From positions 1-32,493 of the forward strand of contig CABYRE010000013.1 in NCBI GenBank assembly GCA_902521325.1: DNA of 32,493 nucleotides. Reading direction: 5' to 3'. Origin of the DNA: an uncultured Alphaproteobacteria bacterium. GTDB taxonomy: Bacteria > Pseudomonadota > Alphaproteobacteria > HIMB59 > GCA-002718135. The notes beneath the pieces are model-generated. The model worked only from the letters and a program-made list of their open reading frames with translations, did no database searches and was not told where the DNA came from. Below are positions 22,685-29,165 of this stretch, piece after piece (position 1 is the stretch's first letter; each line of letters starts with the position of its first letter). Both the position numbers and the translations under genes were made by a program.

Positions 22685-24007
22685 TTACTTAGCTAAAGCA
22701 CCCATTGGATCCCAAGGTGCAAGTGCTACTGGTTCCATATCTAAGTATTTTAAAAGTCTTTTGTTTAGATATTTTTTATCAATAACAACTTCATAGGTAT
22801 ATTCATCAAACCATTCATCGGTCATCATCATATATCCTTGGTTACCACTTTTTGTTCCCCAGCTATTTTCAATTTTCCATTTAGTTGAATTTCTTTTTTT
22901 AATATCGACACCTGTTAAAAGCATAGCATGAGTCATTTCACTATCACCGTATTCTAAACGAGTTTGTTTATTCATCTTAAATGAAGTTTGAAAAACATTT
23001 TCATAGTCATAAATACCCATATCAAGCACACCCATATCACGACTAAAACGTTTCCCCACATCACAACCAAACCATACAGCTTCATTATTTTTTATTGAGT
23101 CCATTGCAGATTTTTTTAATTCTTTAATATCGACATTTAAATATTTAATAATTTGTCCTTCAACAACATTTCCAAGATATTCAACCGTGTACATTGTATT
23201 AAATTTTTTATTGCTCATTGGAGCATGAATTAAGCAAACTTTATTTTTAATATTGATATCAGCATATTTTTTGCAGAAATCAATTGGTGTCATATCTGAA
23301 ATAACAATGTGTCTATTATCTTTATTTCTAGTAGACCAATTGATAACATCTGGCGGCTGACCAAGAAACATTGCTAGTAAATTATAAATTGTTTCCATCA
23401 TGTCTTTTTTAAGAGCTGAAGAATTTTTTGCTGGTTTCTTTCTTAGTATAGAAGCAAACTCTCTTAATTTGTGTGTAAGAATATAATTCATAGCACCAGA
23501 TTTACTGCTATGATTTGTTTCAGGCATTACGTCTTTTGGAACTGAACCGTACTTTTTGATTAAGTTTACAAACATATCCCACTGTCCGCCATCTTGTACA
23601 GGTGCTTTTAAAAGATGAGTAATTAGTCTGCTCTCATATGATTCATCTCTTGATTTAATAATATTCTCTAAAAAATAGTTTGCTTTTTCTAACTTATCCC
23701 AAAACATGAAATAATTTTGGGAAAACTCAAATGTATTTAGTTCAAGACTATCAACAACTTGCAAACGCATAAGATTTAATCCTGCAAATCCCCAACATCT
23801 ACCTGATGCCATTTGGTTTGTTGCAGGTAGTTCTTTTTTAATTAGATTAGAAAAATTATGATTGATTTGACTAAAGTTTTCCCAATTGAGTGCAACATTA
23901 GCTAAATCATTTTTTATTAATGCATTTCTTGAAGCTGTATTTTTATTATTTCTTAAAAATTTATTTTTGTAAGTTTTGATTGTTGATAGAGATATATTTT
24001 TTGCCAT
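22685..24007 (-). CDS. pepC: aminopeptidase C / bleomycin-hydrolase-type cysteine peptidase
   Basis: Papain-fold (C1B) peptidase of 440 residues, the usual bleomycin hydrolase length. The triad is clear: Cys71 in NQMASGRCWGFAGLNLMR, His360 in EMTHAMLLTGVD and Asn381 in WKIENSWGT. The C-terminal APWDPMGALAK matches the conserved tail that lies in the active-site cleft and sets aminopeptidase specificity. The family forms hexameric barrels in the cytosol that trim peptides and deamidate bleomycin-like compounds. No secretion signal is visible. The family is best known from Firmicutes, Bacteroidetes and eukaryotes, so transfer is possible, although base composition matches the neighbours. It lies 30 bases after topA on the same strand. 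Confidence 0.95.
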   Translation of the reverse strand: MAKNISLSTIKTYKNKFLRNNKNTASRNALIKNDLANVALNWENFSQINHNFSNLIKKELPATNQMASGRCWGFAGLNLMRLQVVDSLELNTFEFSQNYFMFWDKLEKANYFLENIIKSRDESYESRLITHLLKAPVQDGGQWDMFVNLIKKYGSVPKDVMPETNHSSKSGAMNYILTHKLREFASILRKKPAKNSSALKKDMMETIYNLLAMFLGQPPDVINWSTRNKDNRHIVISDMTPIDFCKKYADINIKNKVCLIHAPMSNKKFNTMYTVEYLGNVVEGQIIKYLNVDIKELKKSAMDSIKNNEAVWFGCDVGKRFSRDMGVLDMGIYDYENVFQTSFKMNKQTRLEYGDSEMTHAMLLTGVDIKKRNSTKWKIENSWGTKSGNQGYMMMTDEWFDEYTYEVVIDKKYLNKRLLKYLDMEPVALAPWDPMGALAK

Positions 24008-24037: not shown

Positions 24038-26563
24038 TCAATTCTTAACTGTTTTTTTCTTTTTTTTAAGACCCATTTTAGCTTTTCTTTCATCAATTAA
24101 CCTAATAGCATCTTCTAGTTTTAAACTATCAATTGTTTGATCACCAAGAATTGATGCATTTATTTTTCCACATTTTACATATGGTCCAAATTTTCCATCA
24201 TGAGCGGTAATACTTTTCTTTTCTGTTGGATGCTCTCCAAATGTTTTTAACGTTGCATTACCTCTCTGTGTAGGCTTAGCAATTAATTCAATGGCTCTTT
24301 CAAGTTCAATATCAAGAATATTATCTGTTTTTTCGAGAGCTTTATATTTTTTATCATGCAGAATATATGGACCGTACATTCCAATACCGGCACTAACTGT
24401 TTTATTTGTTTCAGGATGAAATCCTAATTTACGAGGTAAACCAAGTAGTTGAATAGCTGTGTTTAATCCTATTTCATCTGGTTCAAAATTTTTAGGAATA
24501 GAAACTCTTTTTGGTTTCTTTTCTTTCGTTCCTTCACCAACTTGCATATAAAATCCATAAGGACCTTTTCGAAGTGTAATCATTTCTCCTGTTTCAGGAT
24601 AAATACCAATCTCTTTTGGTCCACTAAGTGCAGTTCCGTCTTTATCGTTTAATTGGTTAAATTGAACTGTATATTTGCAATCGGGATAATTAGAGCAACC
24701 AATAAATCCTCCAAACTTTCCAACTTTAATCCCTAATCTTCCATTATCACACGTAGGACATTTCCTTTTTTCATCTGAACCATTTGGCGGAAAGAAATGT
24801 GGACCTAATGCTTCATCAAGAACATCAATAACCTCTCTGTTAGACTTACCTACGGTTTCATCACAAAGTTGTTTAAATGTTTCCCAAAATTTTCTCAGAA
24901 CCTCTTTCCAATCAAGTTTACCATCAGAAATTTCATCAAGTTGATTTTCAAGATCAGCGGTAAAATCGTATTCCACATATTGATTGAAATATTTTTCTAA
25001 AAATATTGATACTATTCGCCCTCGATCATGAGGATTAAAACGTTTTTTATCTAAAATTACATAATCTCTATCTTGTAGAACCTTAATAATAGAAGCGTAA
25101 GTAGATGGTCTACCAATGCCAAGTTCTTCAAGTTTCTTTACTAAGCTTGCTTCAGTATAACGAGGAGGAGGGGAAGTAAAATGTTGTGTCTTTTCAACTT
25201 CTTTTAAATTTAAACTTTCTCCTTCAATCATGGCAGGAAGAATTGATTCTTTTTCTTCATCTTTATCATCATCTTTAGCCTCTTGATAAACTTTGTACAT
25301 CCCAGGAAACTTAATTGTTGATCCATTTGCTCGTAAAATAATTTTTTTATCTTCGTTTGTAATATCAACTGCTACTTGATCTAATACAGCACTTGCCATT
25401 TGTGAACTTACCGCTCTTTGCCATATTATTTCATATAACTTGTATTCTTCTAAAGTAATGTATTGCTTAATATCTTTTGGTGTTAGATAAATATTTGTTG
25501 GTCTAATGCATTCATGTGCTTCTTGGGCATTTTTAGCTTTAGATTTATAAACTCTTGGTGCTTCTGGTAAATAGTTTGCACCGTAATTATCAGTAACAAA
25601 ACCTCGAATTTGGTTAATAGCTTCTTTTGACATGACGACACTGTCTGTTCGCATATAAGTTATTAAGCCAGTTGTTTCTCCTTTAATATCTGTTCCTTCA
25701 TAAAGGCGTTGAGCTGTGCGCATTGTTTGACTAGCACTAAGACCAAGTTTACGACTAGACTCAATTTGCATTGTTGATGTAGTAAAAGCAGGGTAGGGAT
25801 TTCTTCTAGCTTCTTTTTTTGAGATATTTCCAACAGTGAAAGTAGAATTTTTAATATCATTAAAAATTTTTGTCGCTTCACTCTCATTTTTAATATCAAG
25901 TTTATCTACTTTATTCCCATCATAAACTGTTAGTCTAGAATTAATGATTTTATCTTCTTTATTTCTAAACTCGCCTTGTAAAGACCAATATTCCTGTGGA
26001 ATAAATTTTTCTATTTCAAGTTCTCTTTCACTTATTATTCTTAAAGCAACAGATTGAACTCTACCTGCTGATTTTGATCCTGGTAATTTTCTCCATAGTA
26101 CTGGAGAAAGTGTAAAACCGACAAGAAAATCTAAAGCTCTTCTTGCAAGATAAGCATTAACTAGATTTTCATCTATTTCTCTTGGCTCTTTAAGACTATC
26201 AAGAACTGCATTTTTTGTAATTTCATTAAATGTAACTCGGTGAATATTTAATTTTGAAAGTGATGAATTATCTCTAAGTAGTTTTTCTACATGCCAGGCT
26301 ATGGCTTCACCTTCACGGTCGGGGTCAGTTGCTAGATATAAATTTTCAGATTTTTTCGCAGCATCTGTAATTTCCTTTATTACTTTTTTTCCACGATCAC
26401 TGGTTTCCCATTTCATTTGAAAATCATTTTCAGTATCTATCGCATCATTTTTTGCTGATAAATCTCGGACATGTCCAACACTTGCGAGAACTTTGAAGTC
26501 AGAGCCTAAATATTTATTAATAGACTTTGCCTTCGATGGTGATTCAACAATTAATACATTCAT
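24038..26563 (-). CDS. topA: DNA topoisomerase I
   Basis: Type IA topoisomerase that relaxes negative supercoils. The 841 residues start at the ATG at 26563. A TTG at 26578 would add five residues, but GGAG lies 9 bases before the ATG and overlaps that TTG. The Toprim domain begins LIVESPSKAKSINKYLG with Glu7 and DPDREGEAIAW (Asp80, Asp82). The active-site tyrosine is Tyr303 in GLITYMRTDSV. GRPSTYASIIKVLQDRDYV is conserved. One C4 zinc ribbon follows (RKCPTCDNGRLGI to CSNYPDCKY), then cysteine-poor Topo_C-type repeats (GPYGFYMQVGEG, GMYGPYILHDKKYKAL, GKFGPYVKCGK) and a lysine-rich tail (KMGLKKKKKTVKN), the usual alphaproteobacterial architecture. Confidence 0.97.
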   Translation of the reverse strand: MNVLIVESPSKAKSINKYLGSDFKVLASVGHVRDLSAKNDAIDTENDFQMKWETSDRGKKVIKEITDAAKKSENLYLATDPDREGEAIAWHVEKLLRDNSSLSKLNIHRVTFNEITKNAVLDSLKEPREIDENLVNAYLARRALDFLVGFTLSPVLWRKLPGSKSAGRVQSVALRIISERELEIEKFIPQEYWSLQGEFRNKEDKIINSRLTVYDGNKVDKLDIKNESEATKIFNDIKNSTFTVGNISKKEARRNPYPAFTTSTMQIESSRKLGLSASQTMRTAQRLYEGTDIKGETTGLITYMRTDSVVMSKEAINQIRGFVTDNYGANYLPEAPRVYKSKAKNAQEAHECIRPTNIYLTPKDIKQYITLEEYKLYEIIWQRAVSSQMASAVLDQVAVDITNEDKKIILRANGSTIKFPGMYKVYQEAKDDDKDEEKESILPAMIEGESLNLKEVEKTQHFTSPPPRYTEASLVKKLEELGIGRPSTYASIIKVLQDRDYVILDKKRFNPHDRGRIVSIFLEKYFNQYVEYDFTADLENQLDEISDGKLDWKEVLRKFWETFKQLCDETVGKSNREVIDVLDEALGPHFFPPNGSDEKRKCPTCDNGRLGIKVGKFGGFIGCSNYPDCKYTVQFNQLNDKDGTALSGPKEIGIYPETGEMITLRKGPYGFYMQVGEGTKEKKPKRVSIPKNFEPDEIGLNTAIQLLGLPRKLGFHPETNKTVSAGIGMYGPYILHDKKYKALEKTDNILDIELERAIELIAKPTQRGNATLKTFGEHPTEKKSITAHDGKFGPYVKCGKINASILGDQTIDSLKLEDAIRLIDERKAKMGLKKKKKTVKN

Positions 26564-26572
26564 AAATTTGGG

Positions 26573-26576
26573 CTCC
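26573..26576 (-). promoter_or_regulatory. Shine-Dalgarno GGAG for topA
   Basis: GGAG on the minus strand, 9 bases before the ATG at 26563. It decides the start against the upstream in-frame TTG at 26578, which it partly overlaps. It is one of only two clear Shine-Dalgarno sites I see in the window. Confidence 0.6.
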
Positions 26577-26628
26577 AAATTTCAGTTTAAAGATAATTCG
26601 TCAAGAAATTTTAAAAAAAAGTATATTT

Positions 26629-27234
26629 TTACTTGGATAATTTAATTTTACTTTCAGTTTTGTTTATGAGTCTTTTAATGTTTTCTGTGTGTTTAATATA
26701 AATAATTAAAGTCAAATAAATAAAGAAAATTAGAATATAAAAATTAAAATTAATAAAAATATAATAAGATGGCGCTACTAAAATTCCAATTAAAGATCCA
26801 AGAGAAGAGTATTTACTTACAAAAGCAGTAACAAGCCATACTAATAAAAATAAAATTGCAATGTAAGGATTAAAACCAAATAAAAAGCCAATATACGTTG
26901 CTACTCCTTTTCCACCTTTGAATTTTAACCAAACAGGATAGATATGACCTAATATGGCAAAATGACATAGAAGTATTTTATTCAATAAAGAAATATCTTG
27001 AAAATACATTTGTAAAATGAGGAATGGAAGAAAGCCTTTAAAAATATCAAAACAAAGAACAATGAATGCTAAAAATTTATTTCCTGTTCTTAAAACATTG
27101 GTTGCACCTACATTGCCAGAACCAACCTTTCTAATATCTTCCAAGCCAAATAATTTTGTAAAAATCAATGCAAAGGGTAATGATCCTATCACATAAAAAA
27201 ATATGATTAATGATAAACTACTTACTAAAGTCAT
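26629..27234 (-). CDS. plsY: acyl-phosphate:glycerol-3-phosphate acyltransferase PlsY
   Basis: Integral membrane enzyme for the first acylation in phospholipid synthesis. The 201 residues have about five to seven hydrophobic segments and the three PlsY motifs: VIGSLPFALIFTKLF with the downstream VGSGNVGATNVLR (37-49), GHIYPVWLKFKGGKGVAT (96-113, glycine-rich phosphate loop), and a third motif region around VSKYSSLGSLIGIL, which resembles T-R-Y-x-S-L-x-S. The 3' part is basic (KRLINKTESKIKLSK). It overlaps the end of pyrB by 17 bases on the same strand. dprA, often located between plsY and topA in relatives, is absent. Confidence 0.94.
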   Translation of the reverse strand: MTLVSSLSLIIFFYVIGSLPFALIFTKLFGLEDIRKVGSGNVGATNVLRTGNKFLAFIVLCFDIFKGFLPFLILQMYFQDISLLNKILLCHFAILGHIYPVWLKFKGGKGVATYIGFLFGFNPYIAILFLLVWLVTAFVSKYSSLGSLIGILVAPSYYIFINFNFYILIFFIYLTLIIYIKHTENIKRLINKTESKIKLSK

Positions 27235-28363
27235 CTCTGTTTTTAATGATTAAGTCTAAGCATGCCATTCTTACTGCAACACCCATAGCTACCTGTTCTT
27301 GTATTAAGCTCCTCGTGACGTCATCGGCAAGTTTCGAGTCTATTTCTACACCACGGTTCATTGGGCCTGGATGCATAACGGAAGCATTTTTTTTTGCATA
27401 TTTAAGTTTATTGTAATCTAAACCATACTTTTTAAAATAAGTCTTTTGATTTGGCATTATTTTCCCAACTATTCTTTCTTTTTGAATACGTAGCATCATA
27501 ACAATATCACAATTTTGTAATCCCTTTTTCATTTCCGTATAAACATTCACAGGTAGTTTATTTAAACTTTTTGGTAACCATTCCTTAGGCCCAATAACAT
27601 TTATTTTTGCACCTAACTTTGTTAGTATGATTATGTTTGATCGAGCAACACGGCTATGTAAAATATCCCCGCATATAGCAATTTTTAATTTTGAAAAATT
27701 TTCAAATTTATTTTTTATAGTAAGTGCGTCTAATAACGCTTGTGTGGGATGCTCATGACTACCATCACCAGCGTTAATTACAGACGCATCTACTGTTTCT
27801 GAAATTTTTTTACTAATTCCTTCCTCTGGATGTCTGACAATTAAAACGTCAGGATTCATTGAATTAATAGTAGTCATAGTATCGAGTAAGGTCTCACCTT
27901 TGTTAATAGAGCTATCTTTTACCACTACATTAATGAGATCTGCTCCTAGCCTTTTAGCAGCAACTTCAAAACTTGTTCTTGTTCTTGTTGAATCTTCAAA
28001 AAAAAGATTAAATATTGTTCTTCCTTCTAGAACATTAATTTTTTTAATTTTACTTTTATTAAAAGTTATATATTTTTTAGATTCATCTAAGATGTGCTCA
28101 ATTTCTTTCTTGGTTAAATCAGCTGTTTCTACTAAATGAATTTTTTTAAAAATATTTTTACTTCTTTTTAATTTGATATTTGTTTTTGAAGAAATTGATG
28201 AATAATATTTTAAAGCTATTTTTTCTGCATCTTTAAGAATTTTTGATCCTGTAGATGATCTGATTGCTTTTAATTTTGGCAATTTCACTTTCATTTGCCA
28301 ATATTTTGAATTTTCTCTTTTATATAATTTTATGTGTCCTGATTTAAGTAGCTTTGAATTCAT
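27218..28363 (-). CDS. pyrB: aspartate carbamoyltransferase with an unusual N-terminal integrase-arm-like extension
   Basis: Forms carbamoyl-aspartate in pyrimidine synthesis. The ATG at 28363 gives 381 residues against about 310 for a typical catalytic chain. Residues about 75-381 are a complete ATCase: HLVETADLTKKEIEHILD, carbamoyl-phosphate site FFEDSTRTRTSFE (STRTR 125-129), KGETLLDT with Lys155, GSHEHPTQALLDAL (HPTQ 205-208), LRIQKER and MHPGPMNRGVEI (331-342). Residues 1-73 are extra and lysine-rich; LYKRENSKYW (13-22), then IRSSTGSKILKDAEKIALKY (34-53), recall the arm-type DNA-binding domain of tyrosine recombinases. The fused frame is open throughout. If a later start is used, none with an ATG lies just before residue 75 (the only internal ATG is Met24). 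pyrC, often adjacent, is absent. Confidence 0.93.
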   Translation of the reverse strand: MNSKLLKSGHIKLYKRENSKYWQMKVKLPKLKAIRSSTGSKILKDAEKIALKYYSSISSKTNIKLKRSKNIFKKIHLVETADLTKKEIEHILDESKKYITFNKSKIKKINVLEGRTIFNLFFEDSTRTRTSFEVAAKRLGADLINVVVKDSSINKGETLLDTMTTINSMNPDVLIVRHPEEGISKKISETVDASVINAGDGSHEHPTQALLDALTIKNKFENFSKLKIAICGDILHSRVARSNIIILTKLGAKINVIGPKEWLPKSLNKLPVNVYTEMKKGLQNCDIVMMLRIQKERIVGKIMPNQKTYFKKYGLDYNKLKYAKKNASVMHPGPMNRGVEIDSKLADDVTRSLIQEQVAMGVAVRMACLDLIIKNRDDFSK

Positions 28364-28401
28364 ATGTGTCAATAATGTGAAAGTGTGTGTAAACTAATTT
28401 A

Positions 28402-28860
28402 TTAATTATTTCTATATCTATCTAAATATCCTTGTAAGATATAAGCAGCTGATTGTTGATCAAGTTTACTTTTTATCTTTGTTTTACTTAAATCGGTTTT
28501 TCGCATTTCTTTAAAGATTACATCTGATGAAAATCTTTCATCCCAAAGAGCTGTAGGTTTTTTAAAAAAAGTTTGAAGATTAATATTAAAATCTCTTACT
28601 AATTGGCTTTGTTTGTTTTCACTATTATCCAGGCTAATCGGCAGACCAAGAATAAATCCACCAATTTCATACTCTTTCAAAATATCTTTCAAGATAATTA
28701 AATCTTTATTAGTTCCTTTTCTTACGATAATTGAAAGAGGTGTAGCGATTATTTTTGATCTATCGCTTACTGCAACACCAATCGTTTTAGTTCCTAGGTC
28801 TAGACCTACAAGTATTTGTGATGTATTAAGACCATCGATTAAATTATTTTGATCATTCAT
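28402..28860 (-). CDS. ruvX: YqgF/RuvX-family putative pre-16S rRNA nuclease
   Basis: RNase H-like nuclease. E. coli YqgF is implicated in maturing the 16S rRNA 5' end, and a Holliday junction resolvase role was proposed earlier. From the ATG at 28860 the protein has 152 residues; a TTG further out at 28899 would run back into gatC. Visible are VGLDLGTKTIGVAVSD (Asp21), GFILGLPISLDNSE, the acidic WDERFSSD (Glu108) and LDQQSAAYILQGYLD (Asp134), the catalytic set of the family. It diverges from gatC with 17 bases between the starts. pyrB follows 38 bases downstream on the same strand. Confidence 0.92.
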   Translation of the reverse strand: MNDQNNLIDGLNTSQILVGLDLGTKTIGVAVSDRSKIIATPLSIIVRKGTNKDLIILKDILKEYEIGGFILGLPISLDNSENKQSQLVRDFNINLQTFFKKPTALWDERFSSDVIFKEMRKTDLSKTKIKSKLDQQSAAYILQGYLDRYRNN

Positions 28861-28865
28861 ATAAT
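28860..28865 (+). promoter_or_regulatory. TATAAT -10-like element before gatC
   Basis: A perfect TATAAT spanning the first base of the ruvX start codon and ending 12 bases before the gatC TTG. No good -35 is visible at 16-18 bases. If it is used, transcription would begin near 28872, downstream of the GGAG at 28866-28869, so this promoter and that Shine-Dalgarno cannot both serve the same mRNA. Confidence 0.25.
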
Positions 28866-28869
28866 GGAG
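28866..28869 (+). promoter_or_regulatory. Shine-Dalgarno GGAG for gatC
   Basis: GGAG with 8 bases to the TTG at 28878. This supports TTG as the gatC start, since no in-frame ATG lies nearby and the ATG at 28864 is in another frame. Confidence 0.5.
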
Positions 28870-28877
28870 CTTATAAA

Positions 28878-29165
28878 TTGAAGATTGATAAAAATACAAT
28901 AAATAAAATTGCTCGTCTATCTAGAATAAAGTTAGATGATAAAGAATCTGAAGATTATATTAAGGATCTTAATTCCATTTTAGACTGGGTAGAGCAGTTA
29001 AATGAAGTAAATACTGAAAATGTAGAACCGTTAAGTAACATATCATCATCAATTTTACCTAAAAGAGAAGATGTATCTAATGATACTAATTCTAGTGAGG
29101 AAATTCTTGAAAATGCTCCTGATAAACTCGAAGGTTTTTTTGCAGTACCAAAGGTTGTAGAATAA
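28878..29165 (+). CDS. gatC: Asp-tRNA(Asn)/Glu-tRNA(Gln) amidotransferase subunit C
   Basis: Small linker subunit that wraps around GatA and GatB in the GatCAB transamidase. The 95 residues begin KIDKNTINKIARLSRIKLDD, the typical GatC opening, then LNSILDWVEQLNEVNTENVEPL (family pattern: hydrophobic helix, then N-T-x-x-V-x-P), LPKREDVSND and the C-terminal APDKLEGFFAVPKVVE. The start is TTG, supported by the upstream GGAG and by the conserved residues beginning immediately after it. Its stop shares one base with the gatA ATG (TAATG). Confidence 0.95.
   Translation: MKIDKNTINKIARLSRIKLDDKESEDYIKDLNSILDWVEQLNEVNTENVEPLSNISSSILPKREDVSNDTNSSEEILENAPDKLEGFFAVPKVVE

Follow-up and report, generated by a model that had tools for sequence, protein, structure and literature searches.

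An integrase-type N-terminal domain on aspartate transcarbamoylase and conserved repeats at its start codon: a candidate enzyme-repressor in an uncultured alphaproteobacterium

Why should the aspartate transcarbamoylase (ATCase; pyrB gene product) of an uncultured alphaproteobacterium begin with 72 residues ahead of the enzyme proper, and what might these residues do? The question arises from a contig of 32,493 nucleotides, whose whole length is called the window below. The initial annotation of this DNA took the additional residues for a domesticated integrase module and guessed that PyrB may regulate itself. The reading favored here, held with good though not full confidence, is that PyrB is an enzyme-repressor fusion, in which an integrase arm-type domain is combined with direct repeats at the pyrB start that serve as its operator; binding and repression are inferred.

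Architecture and history of the extended PyrB

The PyrB N-terminus, read in the open frame from ATG 28363, starts with MNSKLLKSGHIKLYKRENSKYWQMKVKLPKLKAIRSSTGSKILKDAEKIALKYYSS and is followed by a full aspartate carbamoyltransferase. The features of this region are the following:

27218-28363, minus strand: pyrB, a 381-codon frame opening at ATG 28363
28193-28363, minus strand: PyrB residues 1-57, read as an integrase arm-binding-type domain (from conservation, profile searches, predicted strands and helix, and dN/dS)
28148-28192, minus strand: PyrB residues 58-72, a variable linker (from the alignment and a dN/dS of about 0.6)
27218-28147, minus strand: PyrB residues 73-381 and the stop codon, the aspartate transcarbamoylase core (Pfam OTCace_N and OTCace)
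28402-28860, minus strand: ruvX, preceding pyrB in the same orientation (context)
26629-27234, minus strand: a frame overlapping the pyrB end, read from its sequence as plsY (context)

The Pfam models OTCace_N (1.3e-42, from residue 76) and OTCace (1.6e-21) match PyrB, and the motifs STRTRT, HPTQ, and HPGPMNR are invariant in the ATCase core of 29 aligned rows; by these motifs and Pfam the protein is a complete catalytic enzyme, its activity being inferred. The remainder after the extension consists of OTCace_N/OTCace, with no recombinase C-terminal catalytic domain, and judged by its domain content PyrB is not an integrase. A TTG nine bases upstream extends the frame in the window, but many relatives have TTA or TTT at this place, so that the comparison points to ATG 28363 as the likely pyrB start. 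The full-length AlphaFold model rests on a shallow alignment (core mean pLDDT 54), and the domain arrangement cannot be read from it.

Regarding the surroundings, the gene order ruvX-pyrB-plsY-topA occupies 24038-28860 of the window, with a gap of 38 bases between ruvX and pyrB; pyrC and dprA, which sit between these genes in many alphaproteobacteria, are absent from that stretch. A 440-residue frame with the motif QMASGRCWGFA follows at 22685-24007 and presumably, by this motif, resembles a bleomycin-hydrolase/PepC-type cysteine peptidase. PyrI was found above the cut-off in none of 16 genomes (one genome of family f2 lay below it), and 7 of 14 control genomes, including E. coli, were positive.

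The source genome (1.09 Mb, 57% complete) is a member of family f1 of the HIMB59 order, which is given as synonymous with AEGEAN-169, a group of marine bacterioplankton, in the title of PMC10308909; the bacterium is small and probably marine. In a survey of 150 genomes of the order, 79 f1 genomes had a pyrB match, and the extension was in frame (match from residue 1-6) in 72 of them. The remaining seven comprise five with pyrB cut by a contig end (G086, G012, and G105 checked directly; G030 and G011 judged from coordinates), one with a frameshift in the linker (G028), and one in which the extension is absent (G063), whereas in the sister family f2 it was reached by none of 36 PyrB matches. The G028 frameshift (L145, G028:C7, 1033-1257) lies between extension and core within an A-rich stretch, where either a sequencing error or a true split of the gene is possible.

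Median dN/dS values (11 sequences, 55 pairs, of which 49, 51, and 55 were usable for domain, linker, and core) were 0.093 for residues 2-57, 0.60 for the linker, and 0.054 for the core, and it follows from the low value of the domain that, as far as codon comparison can tell, it is translated and constrained. According to these data two claims of the initial annotation are borne out: PyrB does carry an additional N-terminal part, in which a conserved domain of 57 residues and a loose linker precede the complete ATCase, and this part, being conserved in the family and constrained, is not a stretch left open by chance.

A decayed copy of the extension upstream of pyrB in a relative without it had been named in advance as a refuting observation. 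In G063, the sole such relative encountered, no decayed copy was present upstream of pyrB, and because this genome is nested among extension bearers in the TopA tree, where the bearers as one clade were rejected (AU p 0.0008), its state is read as a loss; the PyrB-only tree left gain versus loss undecided (AU p 0.29). Phylogenetically, then, the extension is older than the split of the sampled f1 family and was lost at least once. Two further observations concern the trees: the f2 PyrB and TopA (L164, L165, L166) stand on very long branches of 2.8 and 2.3 changes per column, and it is possible that PyrB of f2 is not a straightforward orthologue; also, G128 (L152, L299) bears the group code g6 like G070 and G144, yet its PyrB and TopA cluster with g3, g5, and g7.

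Relationship of the extension to tyrosine integrases

A profile of 29 extensions (A1) was searched against 385 genomes of the class; two PyrB aside, it matched 12 places with E values from 7e-8 to 4e-4, with mixed weaker matches below them. By reading, ten of these places hold frames of 298-551 codons whose C-termini look like those of tyrosine recombinases, and the other two are truncated N-termini. Pfam integrase or SAM-like models match six of nine tested A1 frames at E up to 0.001, although L183 and L190 do not reach the curated cut-off; L181, L184, and L191 have no such match at E 0.001. The reverse search with an integrase-only profile (A3) found this PyrB at E 2.5e-12, and hhalign aligned the extension with the integrase profile over 59 columns (Prob 99, E 3.3e-18). 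Because of the two-way profile matches together with hhalign, the PyrB extension is, at the level of sequence profiles, homologous to tyrosine-integrase N-termini, and most of the residues that are invariant in PyrB (Y14, K15, R16, N18, S19, W22, Q23, R35) also occur commonly in these integrases. The proposal of a domesticated integrase arm-binding-type module is upheld in this sense by A1, A3, and hhalign; DNA binding is not shown.

It could be supposed that there is no homology at all and that a short motif arose by convergence in a lineage-specific extension, since the libraries miss the domain: Pfam, NCBIfam, and PHROGs, applied to the extension alone or to 29 members, gave scattered weak matches that do not name it, a PDB profile search with the extension returned a single match at E 5, and Foldseek of the domain against PDB found no match below E 0.8. 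However, the reciprocal profile matches and the hhalign value (E 3e-18) already disfavor this supposition, and it is hardly tenable. The profile comparison suggested for the module thus has two sides, library profiles failing to name the domain and direct profile searches tying it to integrases. The DUF6538 label was not confirmed: Pfam DUF6538 is missing among the matches of the 29 members up to E 10, a search in which the HMMER filters discard weak similarities.

The predicted model of the domain (mean pLDDT 88) has strands at residues 2-6, 11-15, 23-26, and 34-37 and a helix at 43-61. In VIA-align the integrase arm domains 3rmp (Z 5.7) and 3jtz (Z 5.5) took ranks 2 and 3, and 3ju0 reached Z 4.9; an AP2 DNA-binding domain scored Z 5.3 and unrelated folds up to Z 6.2, and values such as those of 3rmp and 3jtz are unremarkable by the tool's own note. 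The model therefore has the strands and helix expected of an arm-like fold, but with these modest scores and no clear Foldseek match it is only consistent with an integrase arm domain, not proof of it.

Extension matches at E 0.02-0.12 in G059, G006, G034, and G017 were inspected and rejected, being a dihydroorotase-like frame and other frames with no integrase among them; the inspection covered these four places and left out G022, G038, and G028:C1. No relative was confirmed when viral contigs were scanned once with the extension (106 pattern matches).

An integrase front is also found on another enzyme. In G169:C3 (L231 / L309) a 754-residue frame is matched by the integrase profile; its front consists of the integrase N-domain and a Phage_int_SAM_5 match (3.8e-6), and the rest, with 2Fe-2S_thioredx and Complex1_51K, is read from these matches as a formate-dehydrogenase-beta-like protein. 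Among 32 genomes of its family f10 the fusion is present in 4 (90-100% identity), the enzyme part only in 22, and no match in 6. Since the integrase piece is larger than in PyrB and the alphaproteobacterial family is different, the two fusions are, by this comparison, most likely independent, so that the joining of an integrase front to an enzyme would be more than a single accident. L310, L311, and L312 are also members of the fusion, and a conserved stretch, GGTGGACTACGTTTGACTTT, lies upstream.

Direct repeats at pyrB and at integrase genes

Three direct repeats, which the initial annotation does not mention, precede pyrB with the consensus TTN(A/G)CACAT, their starts being 10 or 11 bp apart and the last copy abutting the ATG:

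28385-28393, minus strand: repeat copy 1, TTTACACAC, in the DNA upstream of the pyrB start
28375-28383, minus strand: repeat copy 2, CTTTCACAT, off consensus with T instead of A/G before CACAT
28364-28372, minus strand: repeat copy 3, TTGACACAT, abutting the pyrB ATG

Taken by itself, the window shows no striking number of repeats (one exact TTNACACAT versus 2.1 expected; the TTNACACA pair present only at 2 mismatches), and for this reason the case for an operator rests on conservation. CACAT stands before the ATG in 63/63 distinct pyrB loci, chosen by protein alone. The CACA of copies 2 and 3 is identical in 960/960 comparisons of 16 representatives versus 41% at pyrB four-fold sites. The latter are the proper reference, because the four columns of the spacer (43% identity) had been picked as variable post hoc. 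Certain distant genera have a degenerate copy 1, and the base before A/G-CACA in copy 3 is freely A, G, or T.

The location of the repeats is nearly exclusive. Of the 110 family genomes, 66 contain the doublet ACACAT-N3-6-ACACATATG, each a single time (reversed control 0), and all 66 doublets adjoin the start of an extension-bearing pyrB. Across 162 genomes of the order, triple ACACA arrays were matched 74 times, of which 66 lie at pyrB and 8 elsewhere, with none in 52 f2 genomes; the reversed control is void here, the pattern being palindromic in reading order. The window pyrB fails both patterns since its copy 2 is off consensus. The TTNACACA pair at 12/14 or better is found upstream of 74/76 pyrB loci with the extension and 0/80 without it (best 10), where the 76 bearing loci overlap in genomes and the groups were scanned over 150 and 250 bases. 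Both domain and repeats are lacking in G063; this joint loss is no proof of a functional link because they adjoin and one deletion suffices. The absence of a pyrB Shine-Dalgarno sequence was discarded as evidence, since only 6/28 window genes show one by the pattern used.

On this comparative evidence the repeats are well supported as a conserved candidate operator, the operator function being inferred. It might be argued instead that the domain is a structural or assembly add-on of the ATCase oligomer and the repeats a mere fossil of the fusion, given that some class A ATCases are known to use N-terminal extensions in assembly and that the domain is under constraint by dN/dS; but CACA cores kept where synonymous sites vary do not suit a fossil, the freely evolving linker is ill-suited to rigid packing, and we regard this possibility as very improbable.

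Further support for an operator comes from the integrases. Phased repeats stand before the integrase start at homologous loci, for example TTACACAGTTCTTACACACTTTTACACAT in L181. The set analyzed comprises 81 domains, 80 of them with 120 bp upstream, with identical domains counted once and PyrB rows removed; among its members are 13 frames shorter than 250 codons, a pair of orthologues (L182/L188), and L231, the fusion with the formate-dehydrogenase-like protein, and "upstream" is measured from the domain start, not from the start codon. Control windows were taken inside or behind the integrase gene, and shuffled upstream regions served as a second control. The pyrB-derived TTNACACA pair (at least 12/14) was found in 16/80 integrase upstream regions versus 1/744 control windows. 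Nine-mers repeating at lag 11 were present in 29/80 regions versus 2.2% of controls (lags 10 and 12: 4/80 each). Repeats of this 11-bp-phased kind were counted in 30/80 regions versus 19/744 control windows, and a self-repeat at lag 10 or 11 in 30/80 versus 2.0 on average and at most 7 in 100 shuffled sets. With 13 regions seen before testing excluded, the lag-10/11 repeat remained in 23/67 and the TTNACACA pair in 9/67. By the lag test 50 of the 80 homologous upstream regions have no repeat, and triple repeats are few (3/80 versus 4/744 controls).

The repeat letters vary among integrases (CTTACACA, CTAGCACA, TGTACACA, CTTTGCAAA, CTGACCAAC), as expected if each integrase reads its own repeat, and the A/G choice before CACA at pyrB mirrors the integrase TTACACA and CTAGCACA. 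A coarse test of domain closeness to PyrB against repeat closeness to TTNACACA revealed no trend (Spearman 0.03). These data suggest a binding-site rule for integrases, namely, that this N-domain often goes with 11-bp-phased repeats upstream of the gene. As to the neighborhood of these genes, ARAGORN placed a tRNA in 15/21 scanned integrase loci, which in 14 of them precedes the integrase domain by no more than about 350 bases (distances computed by hand). A tRNA-Met (cat) lies just upstream of the integrase in 10/21 loci (L181, L182, L183, L186, L213, L216, L220, L233, L234, L236), which suggests one integration-site class.

The repeats might nevertheless be recognized by a different protein, such as CtrA, one resembling a directionality factor, or some further regulator, with the domain serving something else. 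Some copies resemble the CtrA box, TTAA-N7-TTAA; this box would not allow the free A, G, or T found before A/G-CACA in copy 3. Directionality factors are described in PMC7498355 as binding direct repeats spaced by one turn, att sites included. Against any such factor, the N-domain is the only part common to PyrB and the integrases, both of which have repeats; the repeats occur at none of the 80 pyrB loci without the domain, and the motif is almost exclusively at pyrB. This explanation is accordingly judged improbable.

A closer variant keeps the fusion and moves the target to RNA: the domain would bind three UUNACACAU repeats of the leader RNA and block the ribosome at the abutting AUG, i.e., translational autorepression. 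The repeats do abut the start codon within the 38-base gap behind ruvX, a ring-like trimer is inferred to suit repeats along a single strand, and no promoter-like site was seen nearby, the search for a sigma-70-like promoter at 28300-28950 giving 0 matches versus 4.7 in shuffles. The latter result also counts against the favored reading, leaving what the operator blocks unidentified. However, the homologous domain comes from integrases, which are known as duplex DNA binders, the matching phased repeats precede integrase genes by tens of bases, and a spacing of about one helical turn favors DNA; binding to RNA is thus considered unlikely.

Proposed self-repression and known systems

For the proposed fusion of enzyme and DNA-binding repressor the following course can be envisaged. 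An integrase gene would most likely have stood upstream of pyrB, and a deletion would have joined its 5' part to pyrB, the captured piece comprising arm sites, expression signals, and the first 57 or so codons; this route is inferred. The pyrB repeats would then be an operator, corresponding to the phased repeats that precede homologous integrase genes. ATCase catalytic subunits form trimers, and one trimer therefore suits three sites: the PyrB trimer may offer three flexibly tethered domains to three sites one helical turn apart, although this use of the three domains is likewise an inference. Bound PyrB would block the start of pyrB transcription or translation, and pyrimidine synthesis would thereby come under negative feedback at its first committed step. 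Integrase arm domains bind such repeat sites. At least the phage P4 integrase, according to a title cited in PMC7498355, represses its own gene. PyrB probably controls its own gene, binding and repression being inferred; the start-codon repeats raise the autoregulatory role from its initial guess to an inference with support, the binding itself being still not shown.

A wider scheme can be put forward only tentatively and in our estimate is somewhat more apt to fail than to hold. In it the capture of integrase 5' ends, with arm sites and arm-binding domain taken over at once, would be a recurrent route of metabolic genes to self-regulation, with the formate-dehydrogenase-beta fusion as an independent second case; three trimer arms would read three phased sites cooperatively, and their grip would be set by carbamoyl phosphate, aspartate, or nucleotides, making PyrB itself the pyrimidine sensor of bacteria poor in regulators. 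Control by substrates or nucleotides is inferred.

Small-genome bacteria have few regulators, and the control of their central pathways is largely open; the PyrB fusion, if true, is a testable answer for pyrimidine synthesis. It would also mean that one fusion event can produce a repressor along with its operator, that aspartate transcarbamoylase, among the best-studied enzymes, becomes a gene regulator, and that a metabolic enzyme has a new way to gain self-control from a mobile element.

Compared with the N-domains of tyrosine-recombinase arm proteins (P4-like/HPI integrases, 3rmp, 3jtz, 3ju0), the PyrB domain shares a profile with alphaproteobacterial integrases and is alike in the phased direct repeats by its own gene, and its strand-plus-helix model is consistent with theirs. 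It differs in being joined to a metabolic enzyme without a recombinase catalytic domain and in being kept in one chromosomal gene throughout the family. PyrR, and UMP kinase with PepA on carAB, are pyrimidine regulators made from pathway proteins; the likeness to the proposed PyrB is that a pathway protein reports the pyrimidine state to its genes, and the difference is that other proteins and mechanisms are involved. We know of no pyrimidine regulator that is ATCase itself with a fused domain, and a few targeted literature searches, limited to titles and abstract openings, found no integrase domain on ATCase.

In kind such a protein is known: PutA (proline dehydrogenase) and BirA (biotin ligase) are described in PMC6978683 as enzymes repressing their own pathway genes. 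PyrB is proposed as an enzyme that likewise represses its own gene, its repression being not yet shown. The DNA-binding domain of PutA is a ribbon-helix-helix and that of BirA a winged helix, whereas the domain and operator of PyrB look integrase-derived and the enzyme is aspartate transcarbamoylase. As far as our limited searches show, what is new is the integrase origin, the operator captured together with the domain, and ATCase in such a role.
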